DNA from: Desulfuromonas sp.
GTDB lineage: Bacteria > Desulfobacterota > Desulfuromonadia > Desulfuromonadales > Geopsychrobacteraceae
Length of the DNA stretch: 40,515 bases
Direction: 5' to 3'
NCBI GenBank assembly: GCA_002869665.1
Contig: PKUG01000025.1
Coordinates: 1-40,515 of the forward strand
The notes beneath the pieces are model-generated. The model saw only the letters and a program-made list of their open reading frames with translations. It ran no database searches and was not told the DNA's origin. The position numbers and the translations under genes were made by a program. This document shows, one piece after another, positions 4,197 through 11,867 of this stretch. Position 1 is the stretch's first letter. The number at the start of each line of letters is the position of its first letter.

Positions 4197-4285
<89 letters not shown>

Positions 4286-4292
4286 CTAAAAT

Positions 4293-4329
4293 AAAGGGTT
4301 AGCCAAAAATGGCTAGCCCTTTCGTTTTT
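4293..4329 (+). terminator. Element-borne terminator after tRNA-Ser
   Basis: A 12-bp stem with one G-T pair (4293-4304 with 4311-4322, loop AAAAAT) followed by CGTTTTT. It replaces the host terminator pushed to the far end of the element and separates tRNA transcription from the integrase gene. Confidence 0.8.
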
Positions 4330-4342
4330 CTATGTTGTGAAA

Positions 4343-4360
4343 TGGCACACTTTTGGTACA
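4343..4360 (+). promoter_or_regulatory. Putative integrase arm site, left end
   Basis: TGGCACACTTTTGGTACA matches 17 of 18 bases of the copy at 11675-11692 near the other end of the element, in the same orientation. Repeats of this kind just inside both ends of a tRNA-integrated element are usually arm-type sites for integrase. It lies 58 bp from the core repeat and 45 bp before the integrase start, so it could also serve autoregulation. Confidence 0.5.
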
Positions 4361-4404
4361 GTCGAAAGCAAACGGGTACATCATTTCACGGCAAGGTGGA
4401 GCAG

Positions 4405-5466
4405 ATGGCAACAATTCAGGAACGCAAGGCTTTGGATGGAAAAACCAAGTATCGGGTGATTGTGCGCCTGAAAGGTTATCCCCCTCAGTCCGCTACATTC
4501 GACCGGAAAACGGATGCTAAGAAATGGGCGCAGGATACCGAGTCAGCAATTCGTGAAGGACGCCATTTTAAGACCGTTGAGGCCAAGAAGCACACCCTGG
4601 CTGAAATGATTGATCGCTATGTCGAAAACGTGTTGCCGTTGAAGCTCAAAGCTGCTAAGTGGGGGCAGGATTCACAGCTTGAATGGTGGAAAGGGGAGTT
4701 GGGTTATCGTCTGCTTTCGGATGTGACTCCAGCCCTGATCGCCGAATGTCGTGACAAACTATTGTCTCAGGAAACATGCCGCGGCAAGAAGCGTTCCCCG
4801 TCAACGGTTGTTCGTTATATGGCGGCGATCTCTCATGTCTACACTGTCGCTGTGAATGAATGGGGCTGGGTGGAGTATAATCCAGTCAGCAAGGTTAAAA
4901 GGCCGAAGGAGCCAAGGGGAAGGGTTCGTTTTCTGGATGACCAGGAGCGGTCAAGACTGCTCGACGCTTGCCAGCAGAGTGGCAACAAGTTTCTTTACTC
5001 GATTGTTGTTCTGGCGATCTCAACCGGAATGCGGCAGGGGGAAATCCTCAATCTCAAATGGAAGGATATTGATTTCAGCCGTTATCAACTTGTTCTGCAT
5101 GAGACAAAGAACAATGAACGGCGTGCTGTGCCTATTGTCGGGCGGGCTCATGAGGTTTTACGCGAGCTTTCCAAGGTCAGAAGGATTGATAATCCCCTTA
5201 TTTTTCCAGGAGCCAACCCTGAAAAACCGGCGGATGTCCGAAAGAGTTGGGATGCTGCATTGGTGCAGGCAGGAATAAAAGATTTCCGTTTCCATGACCT
5301 GCGCCATACGGCAGCATCCTATTTAGCCATGAACGGCGCGACACTGGCGGAAATTGCCGAAGTTTTGGGGCATAAGACCCTGCAAATGGTAAAGCGCTAT
5401 GCCCATCTTTCTGAAGCACACACGAGCTCTGTTGTCGAAAGAATGAACCGCAGTATTTTTCAATAA
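4405..5466 (+). CDS. int: Tyrosine recombinase (phage-type integrase)
   Basis: 353-aa integrase that recombines the 58-bp tRNA-Ser core. An N-terminal arm-binding domain (about 1-60) is followed by a core-binding SAM-like domain (about 63-165) and the catalytic domain (about 175-350). The catalytic residues are visible: R210 in TGMRQGE, H297-x-x-R300 in FHDLRH, H323 in LGHKT and Y332 in KRYAHLS. The start at 4405 is chosen for AGGTGGAG upstream; a longer open frame to 4309 overlaps the terminator and has no SD. The gene is next to the intact tRNA copy and points into the element, the usual arrangement for tRNA-specific integrases. Confidence 0.96.
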   Translation: MATIQERKALDGKTKYRVIVRLKGYPPQSATFDRKTDAKKWAQDTESAIREGRHFKTVEAKKHTLAEMIDRYVENVLPLKLKAAKWGQDSQLEWWKGELGYRLLSDVTPALIAECRDKLLSQETCRGKKRSPSTVVRYMAAISHVYTVAVNEWGWVEYNPVSKVKRPKEPRGRVRFLDDQERSRLLDACQQSGNKFLYSIVVLAISTGMRQGEILNLKWKDIDFSRYQLVLHETKNNERRAVPIVGRAHEVLRELSKVRRIDNPLIFPGANPEKPADVRKSWDAALVQAGIKDFRFHDLRHTAASYLAMNGATLAEIAEVLGHKTLQMVKRYAHLSEAHTSSVVERMNRSIFQ

Positions 5467-5573
5467 CTGACGGTTCATTCTTTGCGAAAACATGCGCATA
5501 AAGCGACCTCTGTTTTTTCTGTTTACATGCCGGAAATATTTTTTTGCATTCCGTTTTATTTACAGAATTTCTA

Positions 5574-5631
5574 CGTAAATTTTCTTTTTATGCTGTATTT
5601 ACTTCCTGGCAAGATGGCAAGAAAATTTACG
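5574..5631. repeat. Inverted repeat between int and xis
   Basis: CGTAAATTTTC (5574-5584) and GAAAATTTACG (5621-5631) are perfect 11-bp inverted copies separated by 36 bp. Further TTTAC words occur nearby. It sits between two genes that converge, so it may stop transcription or bind the excisionase. Apart from this the 190-bp gap shows no credible gene. Confidence 0.45.
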
Positions 5632-5658
5632 AATAAGAGATTTTATAACAGAATAATA

Positions 5659-5880
5659 TCAATAATTTACAGTTGATTTCTCCGCCCACTCGAAAAATTT
5701 ATTTTCGTCAATAAGGACGCGCCTTCCTACACGCACAACACAATAGCTAAAGCCGTTTGTGTGTTCATAAAAGATCAAATGACGCAATCCGCCGATTGGT
5801 GGCCAGGTGTGAAAATCATTCCATTTTGTGACGGGAATCAGGCGAGTTTTTTGGATGCTTTTTTCGGTCATATTCTGCAT
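5659..5880 (-). CDS. Excisionase-like DNA-binding protein
   Basis: 73-aa basic protein with the pattern LIPVTKWNDFHTWPPIGGLR, then GFSYCVVRVGRRVLIDENKF and a short FFEWAEK tail. This is the winged-helix/helix-turn-helix layout of AlpA/excisionase-type proteins found beside integrases on genomic islands. A very good SD (AGGAGG, 6 nt before ATG) supports the start. The stop of the upstream Rep gene lies 10 bp away, so both are probably one transcript. Likely role: binding near the att sites to favour excision, or repression of element genes. No activity can be read beyond DNA binding. Confidence 0.7.
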   Translation of the reverse strand: MQNMTEKSIQKTRLIPVTKWNDFHTWPPIGGLRHLIFYEHTNGFSYCVVRVGRRVLIDENKFFEWAEKSTVNY

Positions 5881-5890
5881 TTTTTTCCTC

Positions 5891-7087
5891 CTAATGGGTT
5901 GTTGGCAGATGTAATTTTTTCCGCTGTTGTTCAGCTTTCATATGTCGTGAATTTGTCCGATTTACCTTGGCGATCTTTTCTCTAACTGAGGCTGCAAATT
6001 CATCCTTGTTTTCTTCCGATCGGTTGACATGTTTGGCGATGTATTTCAGTCCATCCTCAATCTCGGCAGAGACATATTCGTCTAAATGTCGTGCGGCTAT
6101 AAGAGCCGCAATCAGAGCCCTCATGTTTCCAATTGATTGGGCTGTGTTTCGATCAATGTCGAAGCTGACAGCCTTACTTCTGATTAATGGATGTTTTTCT
6201 TGGGCTCCTGTGAACCCGTCCTGAATTGCTCTCCACCAATCTAGGACTTTTCTTTGTGTATGGTGTTTCCCTGGGTTTGTTTGGAACTTGAGCCATTTTT
6301 GCGTGCAATAAATCCAGAGGTTTCCGGTGTAGTCGAATAGATCATCAATTCCTTTGACGGCTAGTTCTGTCAGGGCTTCTCGCCTTAACTGGAACTCAAC
6401 ACGAATGATCTTCATCCCCTTTGGGACGGTATGAACCCCCCAGATGTCGTACATCCAGAACTTTTTTGACTGCTGACAGATTTCTAGTGGCTTGTCATAT
6501 AGCCGAGCGGACAGCTTTCCTTTCCCGATACTGAATCCCGTGAGTTTCCTGTGATGAAAGTGAATTCCCATATAGGCGGCACGATTTACTTTATATTCCC
6601 GTAATTCAGGATCCCAAATGCCATTGGATAGAAGGACATCAAGGCATAAATCGACGCGGCTAGGTTTGATTGTGATTCGTGATCCGCCTAGTGACAGAAT
6701 GATCTCTATGATTCTGTTCACCGTGTTCTCGGCCCCAAGGTGCCATAGGGCTTCAGAACTAATGTGAACGAGAACGCTTGGCTTTGATATCGGAGCTGTC
6801 CACTTGCCGATACTGAAGGTGAATTCCTTGTTGTAGATAAGCCATTCGTATCCATCGCGTCCGCTTTGCTTCACGTTGAATAGAAACTTGTCGTTCTCTA
6901 AAACAAAATGTCCTGGCGCCTCTCTGCGTTCCTGCTTGGCAATTTCTTTCAGTTCAGCAAGGTAGTCAAAGTGGTCAGTTGATGCCCAATGGACATCAAT
7001 TGCCAGGTAAAGGGTGTCGATGCCTGAAGCCAAAACCTGAAGCTCCTGAGCGGCGGTTTTCACCTTTGCGGGGGGGCTGATAGTCAT
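5891..7087 (-). CDS. Rep_trans-type replication initiator or MobT-like relaxase
   Basis: 398-aa protein. Its central region matches the pattern of rolling-circle initiators of the Rep_trans type: SRVDLCLDV (arginine plus two aspartates), ARLYDKPLE, and RVEFQLRR in that order. The N-terminus (about 25-110) has the family's strand-rich YEWLIYNKEFTFSIGK region; the C-terminus is helical and basic. Such proteins nick one strand at a hairpin origin, allowing the excised circle to replicate or a MobT-like transfer reaction to start. Catalytic tyrosine not identified with certainty. A perfect 12-bp hairpin covers the start codon and the G-rich SD (7070-7097). The next-best alternative is a phage gene II-like initiator. 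Confidence 0.6.
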   Translation of the reverse strand: MTISPPAKVKTAAQELQVLASGIDTLYLAIDVHWASTDHFDYLAELKEIAKQERREAPGHFVLENDKFLFNVKQSGRDGYEWLIYNKEFTFSIGKWTAPISKPSVLVHISSEALWHLGAENTVNRIIEIILSLGGSRITIKPSRVDLCLDVLLSNGIWDPELREYKVNRAAYMGIHFHHRKLTGFSIGKGKLSARLYDKPLEICQQSKKFWMYDIWGVHTVPKGMKIIRVEFQLRREALTELAVKGIDDLFDYTGNLWIYCTQKWLKFQTNPGKHHTQRKVLDWWRAIQDGFTGAQEKHPLIRSKAVSFDIDRNTAQSIGNMRALIAALIAARHLDEYVSAEIEDGLKYIAKHVNRSEENKDEFAASVREKIAKVNRTNSRHMKAEQQRKKLHLPTTH

Positions 7088-7097
7088 CAGCCCCCCC
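7070..7097 (-). promoter_or_regulatory. Perfect hairpin over rep SD and start codon
   Basis: GGGGGGGCTGAT (7070-7081) and its exact complement (7086-7097) flank loop AGTC. On the minus strand the 5' arm is the G-rich SD of rep plus part of the leader, and the start codon (7085-7087) lies at the loop edge. The stem would hide the ribosome site. In DNA form it could also be the extruded nick site of the initiator. Confidence 0.7.
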
Positions 7098-7293
7098 TAT
7101 GCAAAAAAACAAAGCCCAAAAACACATAGACTGAGCTAGCAAAAAAGCGTACTGCTCTTTGCTCAGATGTTGTGCCTTGGGCCTTGTTTGGAAGGTGATT
7201 TGTGGGATGCTGTGTCTTCATGCCCTGAAAATATCAAGGCATGAAGCGCTTTTCCCGGACAGAAAAAAATAAAGTTTTGTCCGGGGGGAAATA
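7098..7293. other. Hairpin-rich noncoding region, candidate origin
   Basis: About 196 bp with no credible gene. Nested inverted repeats: CTGAGC/GCTCAG (7131-7136, 7161-7166) with AGCAAA/TTTGCT inside (7138-7143, 7158-7163); CTTCATGCC/GGCATGAAG (7216-7224, 7238-7246); and CCCGGACA/TGTCCGGG (7254-7261, 7278-7285). None is followed by a clear T-run in the direction of the upstream gene. With the rep hairpin at 7070-7097 this is a good candidate for a double-strand or single-strand origin. Confidence 0.45.
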
Positions 7294-8199
7294 CTAAAGT
7301 GAGAGGCTGAGTTCTCTTTGGATGGCTTTAGAAAAAGCTTCAGGGCTTTCTGGGAGGTCTGTGTCTATTTCATTTCCTTCAGTTTCTTGTGCGATTATAT
7401 CGAAGAGTTCCCGTATGTCTGGCTCATTAAGTCGATGGTTGCTGAGGATAGAAAACAGAGAAATGTTGGCTGCCATAAGAATTTTTATGCGTTGTCTGGA
7501 GATCTTAAATTTTGGGGGCTTTAGCATTGCACTTATTAATTTCTCATGGGTTGCTGGTTCTTTGTATCTAAGGCGGTTAATTTTTTCAGATATCCTGTAT
7601 TCAAAAATAATGGAAGAATCTAGCCTTATTAATTTTTCTAGGCTTTCGTAATTTCCGCATCTAGCTTCTCTGAGCAATTTTGCAGGGGATTTTCCATATA
7701 AAATTACACAAGGAATAAGAACTAAAATTAAAAAAGTAATTTCTTTACTGTATATTTTTTCTAATTTTTTATTTTTTTCTGAAAAATCTTCTTCGTCATT
7801 ACTTTTATCCGTATAAGTACTGTTGACTATATTCGTATATGTGAAATTAAATATTTTAAAGTTATATTTATTTTTTTTATTGCAGCGATATATTCGTTTT
7901 TTTGGAAATTCAGAATTGTCTTTTTTTAAAATGTAATATGTATAATCAAAGAGATGATGGTGCGTTTTATACATGGGCAGCCAAGTCTTTAAATCTGGAT
8001 GATTATCCAACATGAGTTTGTTTTTATTATTTCTTACGTCATCTAAAATTTCATAAATAAATTCTGAATATTTTGCCATTTCATAAGAAAAAAGGGCAAC
8101 GTTTAAAGGCTTCCCGTTCATCCATTTTTTAAAATTATAAAAAAATTTCCTATTAACTTTTCCTTGCTGACAATTATTAATCATGAATAAAGATTGCAT
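7294..8199 (-). CDS. Unknown 301-aa island protein, one TM segment
   Basis: I do not recognise a family with confidence. The N-terminal half (about 1-150) is very rich in lysine, asparagine and aromatic residues. A hydrophobic stretch ITFLILVLIPCVILYG lies at about 154-169 and would cross or touch a membrane. After it comes a helical part with LLREARCGNYESLEKLIRLD, and a C-terminal acidic tail (EGNEIDTDLPESPEAFS). The base composition is far more AT-rich than the host genes. SD is weak. It sits between the origin-like region and the ADP-ribosyltransferase-like gene on the same strand, so it may be a partner in the cargo, but nothing shows a function. Confidence 0.75.
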   Translation of the reverse strand: MQSLFMINNCQQGKVNRKFFYNFKKWMNGKPLNVALFSYEMAKYSEFIYEILDDVRNNKNKLMLDNHPDLKTWLPMYKTHHHLFDYTYYILKKDNSEFPKKRIYRCNKKNKYNFKIFNFTYTNIVNSTYTDKSNDEEDFSEKNKKLEKIYSKEITFLILVLIPCVILYGKSPAKLLREARCGNYESLEKLIRLDSSIIFEYRISEKINRLRYKEPATHEKLISAMLKPPKFKISRQRIKILMAANISLFSILSNHRLNEPDIRELFDIIAQETEGNEIDTDLPESPEAFSKAIQRELSLSL

Positions 8200-8255
8200 G
8201 GGATTCTAAAAAAGTAAAATTATTAGCTAATGTTAATTAAATTATGCAAGTAGGT

Positions 8256-8861
8256 TTATACTCTAATATAATCTTTCGAAAGTTCACGAGGTTTAAAAAA
8301 ACCTTTAATGCAGTTAGGATTTCTAATACATAATTGGATATGGTTTTTCTTTTTAAAGCCTGCTTCTGGATACAGCATTTCTCCTTCAAAAAAAGCTGCA
8401 CGAACAGAATCAAAAGGTCTGGCATCCTTGTCGTTATTCATCATTGTGTGTGTAAATTCTATAACAGCCCTGTCGAGCTTACGAAGAAGCCTGTCGGGGC
8501 CGAGAGTGTTCTGAGGTAGGGCTATTCCCTGCTCATCGTGGATATTTTTCAGAACCTCATAGTGTGCTTGAAGTAATTTTAAATTTTGGTGATCAAGAAG
8601 GTTGAAACAATAACCAAGATTGATAACCGCTCCTATTACATAAGGAACATCAATTTTCCCCATTTGAGGATTTTCTTTTACCTCAAGTGCGTAACTCATG
8701 GCGCGCTTTGGGGTGTTTTCCCAAAAATACATTCCAGAACCAAGCCAGTCGTAGGTATTGTCGCTACGTTTGAAGTCTAGCTCTTGATTCAATAGGGCTT
8801 CGCCGATTTTTTTATCACAACCATGAAACCCCAAGACTAGTGATGGATAAAATTGATACAT
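8256..8861 (-). CDS. Putative ADP-ribosyltransferase-like cargo protein
   Basis: 201-aa soluble protein. The motifs resemble the H-Y-E class of ADP-ribosyltransferase folds: GFHGCD with H13, DWLGSGMYFWE with Y45, and a FEGE motif (158-161) that could supply the catalytic glutamate, followed by a strand HIQLCIRNP. This pattern also resembles uncharacterised DUF3990-type proteins. If correct, it would use NAD to modify a protein or nucleic acid, as toxin or defence effector. The preceding gene (8929-9153) encodes a small charged protein and ends in a strong terminator; this gene's ATG lies 20 nt beyond that hairpin. SD weak. Gene is certain; activity is inference from three short motifs. Confidence 0.6.
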   Translation of the reverse strand: MYQFYPSLVLGFHGCDKKIGEALLNQELDFKRSDNTYDWLGSGMYFWENTPKRAMSYALEVKENPQMGKIDVPYVIGAVINLGYCFNLLDHQNLKLLQAHYEVLKNIHDEQGIALPQNTLGPDRLLRKLDRAVIEFTHTMMNNDKDARPFDSVRAAFFEGEMLYPEAGFKKKNHIQLCIRNPNCIKGFFKPRELSKDYIRV

Positions 8862-8878
8862 ATATTGTTGCTCTACAG

Positions 8879-8904
8879 AAAAAGCCCTCTATGAGAGGGC
8901 TTTT
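8879..8904 (-). terminator. Hairpin between small gene and ART-like gene
   Basis: AAAAGCCCTCT and AGAGGGCTTTT flank loop ATG; the symmetric A/T tracts make it work on both strands. On the minus strand it lies after the stop of the 8929-9153 gene and ends about 18-20 nt before the ATG of the ART-like gene, so it could attenuate that gene. Confidence 0.85.
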
Positions 8905-8928
8905 GGATATGATTTAAGTGTATAGGTT

Positions 8929-9153
8929 TTATCGGTAATTCTCGGTCAGTTCGCCTTCCTCATTATAGATTCCAGACGAAATTAGTATCTCAGTTACTTT
9001 TTTTGGATTGTTAACTAACGCACGTTGGCGTTTTTTTAGTCTTTCAAGGTATTTTTCAACTTGATCTTCGCTCATGCCACTCCCTCCAGCGTTTCGCTCA
9101 TTGTCCATGATTTTTTTTGCGGGTCTATCCCTTTTTTTGTTAGGCGATTCCAT
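8929..9153 (-). CDS. Small charged protein, possible antitoxin
   Basis: 74-aa protein with a lysine/arginine-rich start, a coiled-coil-like middle (VEKYLERLKKRQRALVNN) and the C-terminal pattern ILISSGIYNEEGELTENYR, which resembles the tail of many small antitoxin-like proteins ending in a glycine turn plus YR. Two starts have good SD sites: ATG 9153 (GGAGGG, 6 nt) and internal ATG 9075 (GGAGGGAG, 4 nt), the latter giving 48 aa. The gene precedes the ART-like gene on the same strand with a terminator between them. Antitoxin function is inference from size, order and tail only. Confidence 0.6.
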   Translation of the reverse strand: MESPNKKRDRPAKKIMDNERNAGGSGMSEDQVEKYLERLKKRQRALVNNPKKVTEILISSGIYNEEGELTENYR

Positions 9154-9275
9154 TGACTGCCCTCCATATGGTTTGTACAGAAGCGCTGCAATCTACGTAA
9201 CCCTATCATGGTTAGAAATATTTTTGAAGTCAGGCAATGAAATAAAAAAGCTATTCCCTCGCTAGGACAATGACA

Positions 9276-10955
9276 CTACCACTCAAAATGTCGTTTGCTA
9301 GACATCGGTCTCAACAGTGGATAGTGCCATGTGATATCGCATTTCTGGAGCTCAATGGGGGCTCCATCAGAATGATTTTTCCGGATGATAATTCCCGGTA
9401 GTCTTGTAAGGATCCAATTCTTACCAATATCTTCTTCTTGGGCTATTGGCTTGTCGCTTCTGTAAATGATGTCGGCTAGCTTTGATTTGTTGGCGGTGTA
9501 TATGTCAGGCAGTGTAATTTCAGTTAGCCAAAATTTATTGGGCAACTTGTCGGTGAGGAACTTTTTGTCGCCAACCGAAAACGATTCTTTTTTAAAGTTG
9601 GTTTCATTTAATCCTTGCATGTAAAAATCTTTGCTAACAAGCAGGGTTCTTGCCACAAAAGGATGGCTGGTCGTGCCAAGCACAGATTTTATGAGCATTT
9701 CTAACCAATATTCTTTATCGCCACTAAATGCTGCTAACTGCTTAGTGAAATGCTCAAGCAATGCGATGCTTGCCCACTCTGATTTGCTTGCAAGCGCCTT
9801 AATGTCCTTTGAGATTACTGAGAGGGCACAAATTGCTTTGAATGATAAGTCGATATTTTTTTTCGCTTTTTTTTCGGCTTTTTTCTTTATTCGTTTTCTT
9901 TTTTTTGTTGGAATATTCAAATTTGGATAAGGGCTAAGGGCGTCAACTGGTAGGCAATAATTGGGGCCAAAATTGTCGTCATGTATTATGAAATGATCTA
10001 CCCACGCTGCCGCCGTTCTATATTTTGTCCCGCCAAATTGGCTTGAGTATGCAAGCTCAGCTTCTGGACGCCACAGGTCTGTATTAAGTGTATGCCCTAT
10101 AATGGGGACTACGTGGGCGGCATTTGATGATGTTGTGAAAATTAGCATTGAGGGGCATTTGCTCTCCATGTACCTGTAAGAGTACTCAGAAAAATTGCTG
10201 TTTGGGAATCCCTCGATGAATGCGTTTTGGTCGACTGCAAGCCCTTTATTTTCAATAAAGGCGACCATTTCGTCTTTAGTTAATCCTCCCTGAACTTTAT
10301 TTTTCTTATGATCGTAGCCAAGAACAATGTTGATATCTTCTGGACTGATAATTGGATCGCTGCTTTCCTTCATATTGTTGATTGTCATGCAGAGACATGC
10401 ATGTGCGCATACTGAGGTAAAAGTATTTTGCTGTACAAAATAAGTTCCATAAATGACAAAATCAAAGTATTCATTCGCACAATTTATACTGCAAGTAAAT
10501 TTTCGAGATGATGAAGTGTAATTATTGAGGAGATTTACATTTTCACCATTTGGTGTTTTCATGAAAGGTGTGCAAATTACAGATGAATATATATATGTAT
10601 TTATGAATTTGTCTTCATGTTTGTAATTTATTAATATAATACTTGAAAGTAAATTTATATCTTTTCTTTTTGTTTTTAACTCATCATCATCTTTTATTTT
10701 TTCGTTAAAAAAAGAAATCCTGTATATAGTATAGATAATTTTATTTTCATGATAAGTATTTAAAGCTGTTGTTTCTTTTAAAACAATGTCGTGCCCAGGG
10801 TCAATATTCTCAATAATCACACTTTGAGAATCCAATTTTCGCATTAGGGTGCAGATTCGATGAAATGGCCTGTTGCTACGAGTTTTTGATAACCAAAGCT
10901 TTTCTATGAGTTGGAAATTTGAATTACCTTCGGACGAATCGAGAAATTGTGGCAT
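9276..10955 (-). CDS. Papain/C39-like cysteine peptidase cargo protein
   Basis: 559-aa protein. The middle has the signature of a papain-fold peptidase: FVQQNTFTSVCAHACL with an oxyanion glutamine Q175/176 and nucleophile C183, then AAHVVPIIGH with H281, then DHFIIHDDNFGPNY with D326/D327. The N-terminal 170 residues are unknown and strand-rich; the region 353-375 is almost all lysine and arginine, and the C-terminal 180 residues are unknown. No signal peptide. A protease inside a mobile element that also encodes an ART-like protein suggests a defence or toxin role, but the target is unknown. It follows a tiny gene and a terminator that ends about 20 nt before the start; GGAGGGG lies about 9 nt upstream of the ATG. 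Confidence 0.65.
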   Translation of the reverse strand: MPQFLDSSEGNSNFQLIEKLWLSKTRSNRPFHRICTLMRKLDSQSVIIENIDPGHDIVLKETTALNTYHENKIIYTIYRISFFNEKIKDDDELKTKRKDINLLSSIILINYKHEDKFINTYIYSSVICTPFMKTPNGENVNLLNNYTSSSRKFTCSINCANEYFDFVIYGTYFVQQNTFTSVCAHACLCMTINNMKESSDPIISPEDINIVLGYDHKKNKVQGGLTKDEMVAFIENKGLAVDQNAFIEGFPNSNFSEYSYRYMESKCPSMLIFTTSSNAAHVVPIIGHTLNTDLWRPEAELAYSSQFGGTKYRTAAAWVDHFIIHDDNFGPNYCLPVDALSPYPNLNIPTKKRKRIKKKAEKKAKKNIDLSFKAICALSVISKDIKALASKSEWASIALLEHFTKQLAAFSGDKEYWLEMLIKSVLGTTSHPFVARTLLVSKDFYMQGLNETNFKKESFSVGDKKFLTDKLPNKFWLTEITLPDIYTANKSKLADIIYRSDKPIAQEEDIGKNWILTRLPGIIIRKNHSDGAPIELQKCDITWHYPLLRPMSSKRHFEW

Positions 10956-10974
10956 TTAGGTGTTCCCCTCCAAT

Positions 10975-11009
10975 AAAAAAGGCCGACTGTTCGATAGCGT
11001 CGGCCTTTT
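10975..11009 (-). terminator. Hairpin between small gene and peptidase gene
   Basis: GGCCGAC (10981-10987) pairs with GTCGGCC (10999-11005), extended by A and T tracts on both sides. Read on the minus strand it follows the 56-aa gene and ends about 20 nt before the peptidase ATG, exactly the arrangement seen at 8879-8904. Confidence 0.85.
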
Positions 11010-11039
11010 GAATGAATAAATTATATGAGCATGAAGATT

Positions 11040-11210
11040 TTAAAAAAGGTTTTCTACGGGGCGACCGAGAGCAATATTTGTTTTCTCCAGCCGTTTTTTC
11101 TCCTCATTTGCCCTTTTCAATTGCTGTTTTTTGAGATCGTCAATTGATTTGAGAATGTACTCGTCTGTTAATTTGTCGATATTCTGCTCTAGATATGCCA
11201 ATGCAGACAT
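11040..11210 (-). CDS. Small 56-aa coiled-coil protein
   Basis: Starts at the ATG 11208-11210 because AGGAGGA lies 4-5 nt upstream; an open frame reaches 11327 but that extension has no SD. The protein is almost entirely charged helix (DEYILKSIDDLKKQQLKRAN, EEKKRLEK) and ends NIALGRPVENLF. It heads the second cargo module, in front of the peptidase gene, in the same relation as the 74-aa gene to the ART-like gene. The two small proteins are not obviously alike. It could be an inhibitor, adaptor or leader; no family recognised. Confidence 0.6.
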   Translation of the reverse strand: MSALAYLEQNIDKLTDEYILKSIDDLKKQQLKRANEEKKRLEKTNIALGRPVENLF

Positions 11211-11809
11211 CGCTTCCTCCTCTAGTGGTTTTTTAATGAATGAAATATTAGAAGGCCTGGTGTTTGTTGATTTTATATGATTGACTACATTAGGGTTTAA
11301 TAGCAAATAGGGTGCCAATAAACACACCCAATATGTTGGGGTGAAGAATTAGGAACACACTAGATGTTCTAGGCTGGCTCCTAACAGTGTAGCAAAATTA
11401 ACACTGCTTTTCCCCATCATTGGGTTTTTTAGCTTCTTTGTCGTGATCTACCCCTCCTAAAACGACATGAAGTCTAGCAATGATGAACATAAAAGGCAAA
11501 TTGTTTTTTGAAGTTGAAGTCAACAGCTTTATTGATGAGGGCTTGAAATCCTCGTTCTTTGGGTGTTTTTTTACAATAGGCGATTGAGGACTGTTTTCCT
11601 ACATAAAAAAATCGTTTAGAAGTTCAAGCCTATCGGTGTTAGGTAGCCTAGCTTAACCTTAAAATACGTAGCATTGGTACACTTTTGGTACACTGGTTCA
11701 CAAAAATCTGCAAAAAAACACGAGTTTAAATAACAAGTTTATTGATTTAACTTATTAATATTATTATTGATAATCTGTTTTTAATTTTTGTAAGTTCTTG
11801 TCTTTAGGC
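11211..11809. other. Noncoding right end of the element
   Basis: About 600 bp without a credible gene. It should contain the promoter of the 56-aa gene (TATAAA occurs at about 11271-11276 on the minus strand). CAGTGT/ACACTG (11385-11390, 11401-11406) is a small hairpin. A longer inverted pair, CTAGGCTGGCTCCTAAC (11369-11385) and GTTAGGTAGCCTAG (11638-11651), has a 3-nt length difference. The integrase-type repeat lies at 11675. The last 100 bp are very AT-rich. Confidence 0.5.
11675..11693 (+). promoter_or_regulatory. Putative integrase arm site, right end
   Basis: TGGTACACTTTTGGTACAC repeats the sequence at 4343-4360 with one difference. Within it GGTACAC occurs twice. It lies about 117 bp inside the right core repeat. 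Confidence 0.5.

Positions 11810-11867
<58 letters not shown>

Follow-up and report, generated by a model that had tools for sequence, protein, structure and literature searches.

A hairpin over the start codon of rep is very probably the nick site of a small tRNA-integrated rolling-circle element in Desulfuromonas

The closest described systems are the MOBT conjugative elements and the Rep_trans rolling-circle plasmids. In ICESt3, the inverted repeat IR1 has perfect, GC-rich arms of 7 bp enclosing a 12-nt loop with the sequence CT'AA, the apostrophe marking the nick (Robert et al., PMC9371924). The MOBT oriT of ICEBs1, Tn916 and ICESt3 combines the 7-bp GC-rich repeat and the 12-nt loop with CT'A[A/T], on elements carrying a tyrosine integrase. 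These MOBT features are shared by a locus in the 40,515-nt stretch of Desulfuromonas sp. DNA (contig PKUG01000025.1) that we analysed and refer to as the window. The window hairpin has arms and a loop as long as those of IR1 and the T'A step in the corresponding place; its sequence is CTAT. In the Rep_trans plasmid pT181, as in the window, the nic hairpin is GC-rich and its loop carries the T'A step towards the 3' side, and the initiators of such plasmids (pT181/pC221; the pSTK1 and RepDE structures 4cij, 4cwc and 4cwe) have the Rep fold and the motifs RxD and YxKxxE in common with the window Rep. We conclude with high confidence that the hairpin serves as the nick site, or double-strand origin, of a small rolling-circle integrative element with its own Rep_trans-fold initiator; it is possibly also an oriT. 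Coordinates are collected in Table 1.

The locus also differs from each of these systems. Unlike the Rep_trans plasmids, the window element is integrated in a tRNA gene with an integrase and cargo, its Rep falls below the Pfam cut-off, its nick site overlaps the start codon, and no inverted repeat like the ICRIII binding site of pT181 was found directly beside nic. In contrast to MOBT elements, it has no recognised conjugation genes and its Rep is not assigned to MOBT; the second repeat lies upstream of nic in the window family rather than 68 bp downstream as in the MOBT oriT, and the hosts are mainly Deltaproteobacteria-type genomes rather than Firmicutes. Streptococcal IMEs with Rel_PF02486/MobT (PMC5357655) are also small and pair a Rep_trans-type protein with a tyrosine integrase, whereas the window element has a different host, a very divergent Rep and no recognised TcpA coupling protein. 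In the Thermus filamentous phages phiOH3 and Zuza8, gene II encodes a homologous replication endonuclease (~30% identity over 37%) and contains, ~600 nt inside the gene, the hairpin GGGGGGC...GAGTAACAC...GCCCCCC. These phages carry virion genes, none of which was recognised in the window element.

Table 1. Features of the integrated element and of the rep leader, in window coordinates.
Feature	Position	Strand	Remarks
left attachment repeat	4227..4284	+	3' part of tRNA-Ser (tRNA 4197-4284)
tyrosine integrase	4309..5466	+	PF00589, E 7e-35
small conserved protein, 73 aa	5659..5880	-	excisionase-like from position; no family match
rep	5891..7087	-	398 aa, divergent Rep_trans-fold rolling-circle initiator
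nic hairpin	7070..7097	-	core stem 7 bp: GGGGGGC (7096-7090)/GCCCCCC (7077-7071)
predicted nick GACT'ATCA	7081..7082	-	by analogy with CT'AA of Rep_trans/MOBT
long imperfect inverted repeat	7107..7189	-	arms 7107-7119/7177-7189, 13 nt, 92%
inverted repeat CTTCATGCC/GGCATGAAG	7216..7246	-	arms 7216-7228/7234-7246, 13 nt, 92%
conserved inverted repeat	7254..7285	-	arms 7254-7264/7275-7285, 11 nt, 91%
301-aa gene	7294..8199	-	adjoins rep on its upstream side in most close relatives; all-helical by prediction
cargo, 201 aa	8256..8861	-	resembles PD-T4-9_A defence protein (PADLOC, E 2e-7)
cargo ORF, 74 aa	8929..9153	-	adjoins 201-aa ORF
cargo ORF, 559 aa	9276..10955	-	no family match
cargo ORF, 95 aa	11040..11327	-	no family match
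right attachment repeat	11810..11867	+	58/58 identical to left

The first-pass annotation of this DNA had described a perfect 12-bp stem over the start of rep, containing the SD sequence and touching the start codon. This stem is present, with 12/12 bp formed between arms at 7070-7081 and 7086-7097 around a loop of 4 nt. The loop of its 7-bp core stem is 12 nt long (TGATGACTATCA, 7089-7078 on the minus strand), and in the window TGAT and ATCA within this loop pair too, extending the stem to 12 bp. The sole SD-like sequence for rep, the G-run at 7097-7091, lies inside the stem, as do the A and T of the ATG (7087-7085), the G being inside the 4-nt loop. No earlier ATG, GTG or TTG start was found upstream in the rep ORF, for which the stop-to-stop frame is 401 aa. 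Prediction of the RNA structure of the rep leader, suggested at the same time, gave -114 kcal/mol for the minus strand of 7040-7300 (261 nt), which is far more stable than shuffled sequences (z = -10; 0/200 shuffles equal); the plus strand folded as DNA had a z of -7.4, again with 0/200 shuffles equal. Perfect stems of at least 12 bp with a short loop occur seven times in the 40.5-kb window, the stem at 7070-7097 being counted, as compared with 0.05 expected from Markov shuffles, and some of the others are flanked by A/T runs and are terminator-like. An Rfam search returned tRNAs only.

The nature of the Rep protein was addressed by structure prediction and by its catalytic motifs. With an AlphaFold2 model (pLDDT 79, pTM 0.74) as query, Foldseek gave 4cij (E 9e-9) as the sole PDB entry below 1e-3, and VIA-align gave Z scores of 13.2 to 4cij (rmsd 3.9, 218 aligned), 12.8 to 4cwe and 12.1 to 4cwc. 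The next group in the VIA-align list, in which the absence of a fold carries no weight, was TBP at Z 7.8; the likeness of TBP to Rep_trans has already been documented (PMC4797284). The catalytic motifs defined for Rep_trans proteins (RxD, YxKxxE and others; PMC5714925, PMC6499999) could be located as R144-V-D146 (motif I, RxD), Y197-D-K199-P-L-E202 (motif III, YxKxxE) and I-I-R229-V-E231 at residues 227-231 (motif IV, IxRxE, with I replacing the W/L of the published W/LxRxE), the Asp of motif N' being D24. Residues D24, R144, D146, Y197, K199, E202, R229 and E231 are invariant in an alignment of seven homologues. At the place of motif II (published as T/SxY/ExG), the stretch SIGKG before motif III has no Y/E. 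Judged by the model, Rep has the Rep_trans (pT181/MOBT) catalytic fold. The window Rep had no match to Pfam PF02486 (Rep_trans), no NCBIfam family and no match in a sequence-profile search of the PDB. PF02486 matches were obtained only with distant Rep members (5e-5, 0.009 and 0.016), all below the curated cut-off of 29.6 bits, and we therefore describe the protein as having the Rep_trans fold and not as a member of PF02486.

Homologues with 41-57% identity to the window Rep were found in Deltaproteobacteria, Sedimenticola, Geobacteraceae, Syntrophales MAGs and viral contigs, and the family is present in 32/277 genomes of the window's class at E <= 1e-30. Distant homologues occur on a 1724-bp Mesotoga plasmid with two genes and in the Thermus filamentous phages. 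We compared the rep leaders of 56 distinct homologues (here numbered with the prefix L), which are mutually related, so that the counts are not independent. Forty-eight have a hairpin near or inside rep, and in 43 a GC-rich hairpin is found at the same place as in the window. The first-pass annotation had named homologues lacking a hairpin in this position as the refuting case, and the comparison did not refute it. A stem of at least 7 bp with a 12- or 13-nt loop lay within a 46-nt interval at the rep start in 38/56, as compared with 0.78 expected from the remainder of the same loci; a further five have a hairpin at the rep start with another loop length, and another five, including two Thermus filamentous phages, have one elsewhere near or within rep. 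A hairpin of the nic type is absent in 8/56, among them L002, which retains the loop on a stem of 5 bp. The usual form is a stem of 7-11 bp and a 12-nt loop with the 3' end T-A-[A/T]-C-A, T18 and A22 being invariant and A19 and C21 conserved in at least 90%. Exact CTAA is found in the loops of L006, L035 and L052, which are close relatives, while the window has CTAT.

The arms of these hairpins differ in sequence yet pair, as in GGGGGGC/GCCCCCC, GGGGTGC/GCACCCC, GCATGGCG/CGCCATGC, GCAGGATG/CATCCTGC, GCCCCAT/ATGGGGC, GGGAGTCACA/TGTGACTCCC and GCACCCG/CGGGTGC. Across 25 distinct hairpins, 98% of cells are paired and 8/8 pairs are altered on both sides; the stem covariation score for this set was 0.937, as compared with 0.249±0.035 for shuffled and at most 0.294 for slid alignments. 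Nic-type hairpins could also be read in pT181 (ACCGGCTACTCTAATAGCCGGT), a Leuconostoc plasmid, an S. suis plasmid, pTHEBA.01 of Mesotoga and two Thermus filamentous phages. Of nine matches to the exact 16-mer TGACTATCAGCCCCCC in viral contigs, eight had neither a Rep homologue nor a paired 5' arm in the printed flanks, and these eight were attributed to chance. The Rep fold and motifs, the hairpin geometry, the loop and the stem covariation strongly support strand nicking, which had been raised as one of two functions for the hairpin. Points against it are the missing PF02486 match of the window Rep, the loop sequence CT'AT in place of CT'AA, the 8/56 homologues lacking the hairpin, and the failure to find an ICRIII-like inverted repeat beside nic.

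The element measures 7.58 kb (~7.6 kb) between 58-bp perfect repeats of the tRNA-Ser 3' end, and has the integrase and the attachment repeats in a tRNA gene by which tRNA-integrated mobile elements are recognised. Leftwards from its right end are four cargo ORFs, the 301-aa gene, rep, the 73-aa gene and the integrase. The 301-aa protein has a conserved C-terminus (IDTDLPESPEAFxKAIQR), and its structural model has a low-confidence middle. Beyond the right repeat lies an inverted repeat with A/T flanks, of the terminator type. Within the element (4227-11867) no T4SS, coupling-protein, relaxosome or virion gene was recognised. A search with the joined flanks found tRNA-Ser in nearly all family members, none of which aligned over the whole joined site, so that no clean empty site was obtained.

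For excision, the exact position of the nick, the single-strand origin (sso) and transfer we infer the following course. The integrase would excise the element at the tRNA-Ser repeats, Rep would bind close to the origin, and the GC-rich arms would be extruded as a hairpin. Tyr197 is predicted, by analogy with the known systems, to cut the loop GACT'ATCA between 7082 and 7081 of the minus strand, the strand that encodes rep, right after rep codon 2. The 3' end from the nick would then prime leading-strand synthesis while Rep remained on the 5' end, and the displaced strand would terminate with the upstream hairpins at 7107-7285, a candidate sso. The same nick might be used as an oriT if a helper conjugative system took the strand; transfer might also take place in the virion of a helper.

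These upstream hairpins correspond to the three further inverted repeats of the first-pass annotation. The repeats are present, in imperfect form, but on the rep-coding (minus) strand they lie upstream of rep and do not follow it. The sso of most rolling-circle plasmids sits at the 3' end of the displaced strand (PMC4595007), and by position the repeats at 7107-7285 would together occupy this usual place. The long repeat at 7107-7189, just upstream of nic, is itself a candidate single-strand origin by virtue of its position; counterparts of this repeat and of that at 7216-7246 are visible in L004 only. The repeat at 7254-7285 is of the type GGACA-N16/17-TGTCC with an A-rich spacer. In 17/56 homologues a repeat of this type precedes the modelled start of rep by 140-255 nt, and those inspected have it at or close to the end of the 301-aa gene. 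Because a separate repeat serves as binding site in Rep_trans-type systems (PMC9371924; PMC13107129), we consider this repeat a candidate binding site for Rep or a regulator, or else an ssDNA hairpin.

A potential concern is whether the hairpin acts instead on expression of rep. Its location downstream of the 301-aa gene on the same strand might suggest a transcription terminator or an ordinary intergenic hairpin between that gene and rep. We consider this highly improbable: no U-tract follows the stem, which extends into rep, the loop and position are conserved, and a terminator and promoter scan of the rep leader found no terminator and a single weak promoter-like site far upstream. The other function originally proposed was silencing of Rep translation. 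In such a switch the hairpin in the mRNA would mask the SD and start codon to repress Rep, with unfolding as the activating step. Both the ATG and the sole SD-like sequence of the window rep are indeed covered by the stem, in a very stable RNA fold, and stems over the rep SD in relatives reached a median score of 13.5, higher than the 7.5 of control ORFs (p 1.6e-5, without phylogenetic correction). Relatives often have an SD-pairing stem separate from the nic hairpin, for instance upstream of rep in L074 (CCTCCTAAG/CTTAGGAGG), L069, L062 and L003, and translational control of rep may be common among them. In L002 and L003, however, ACG stands at the start-codon position and rep has its start 72 nt (L002) and 54 nt (L003) farther upstream; for the more distant clade, the most convincing SD-associated start lies ~40-170 nt upstream, placing the hairpin within coding sequence, as it also is, far inside gene II, in the Thermus phages. 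Because conservation of the hairpin does not track the start codon, translational switching is not the function for which it is conserved; the loop is conserved as a nic sequence, which a mere occluding stem would not need. We therefore prefer the interpretation of the hairpin as a replication origin. That silencing is a real secondary effect in the window is possible, although we lean against it.

The nick could alternatively serve as an oriT only, with a MOBT-like relaxase and a helper secretion system transferring an element that does not replicate autonomously. The nic type is the same as in the oriT of ICEBs1, Tn916 and ICESt3, and the element has an IME-like size and no recognisable transfer apparatus. 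We consider this explanation unlikely. Homologous Reps and hairpins are found on tiny plasmids (Mesotoga, 1724 bp) and filamentous phages, in which replication would be the natural role, and none of the relaxosome, coupling-protein or T4SS genes was recognised in the element.

As a very probable replication nick site, the hairpin is of a type known from other bacteria; in the window it overlaps the start codon of the gene for the nicking protein itself, and it occurs in a family of little-described small islands. The overlap suggests a simple built-in copy control. In a more speculative proposal, which as a whole we hold to be doubtful, one 28-nt element would combine three functions, as the site nicked for replication, as the ribosome-binding site and as the start codon of the initiator, so that binding or nicking by Rep, or folding of the mRNA, would stop Rep synthesis and limit copy number, and small tRNA islands, whose cargo varies and is partly defence-like, would persist as rolling-circle replicons. 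The locus offers a testable origin and initiator for tRNA-integrated islands of 4.5-10 kb, the maintenance of which otherwise seems unexplained, and the signature of a covarying stem and a fixed loop could serve to find similar origins elsewhere.

In the relatives, integrase and rep adjoin tRNA-Ser, -Leu, -SeC, -Gly or -Glu, the size from repeat to repeat is ~4.5-10 kb, and the cargo differs. In the window element, the 201-aa PD-T4-9_A-like ORF and the 74-aa ORF (8256-9153) are likely defence or toxin-antitoxin cargo, and the 559-aa ORF contains the stretch QQNTFTSVCAHACLCM with His and Asp further on, by eye a papain-like arrangement. An ORF in L086, a 4.6-kb relative at tRNA-Gly, appears by eye to be of the TIR type and is possibly defence cargo. 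In L100, the small C. difficile plasmid pJMR5-1, a distant Rep homologue adjoins a Zot-domain gene in an inovirus-like arrangement. In a related tRNA-Ser element (L090:5323-7827), rep is interrupted near residue 190 by an insert of ~1.3 kb.
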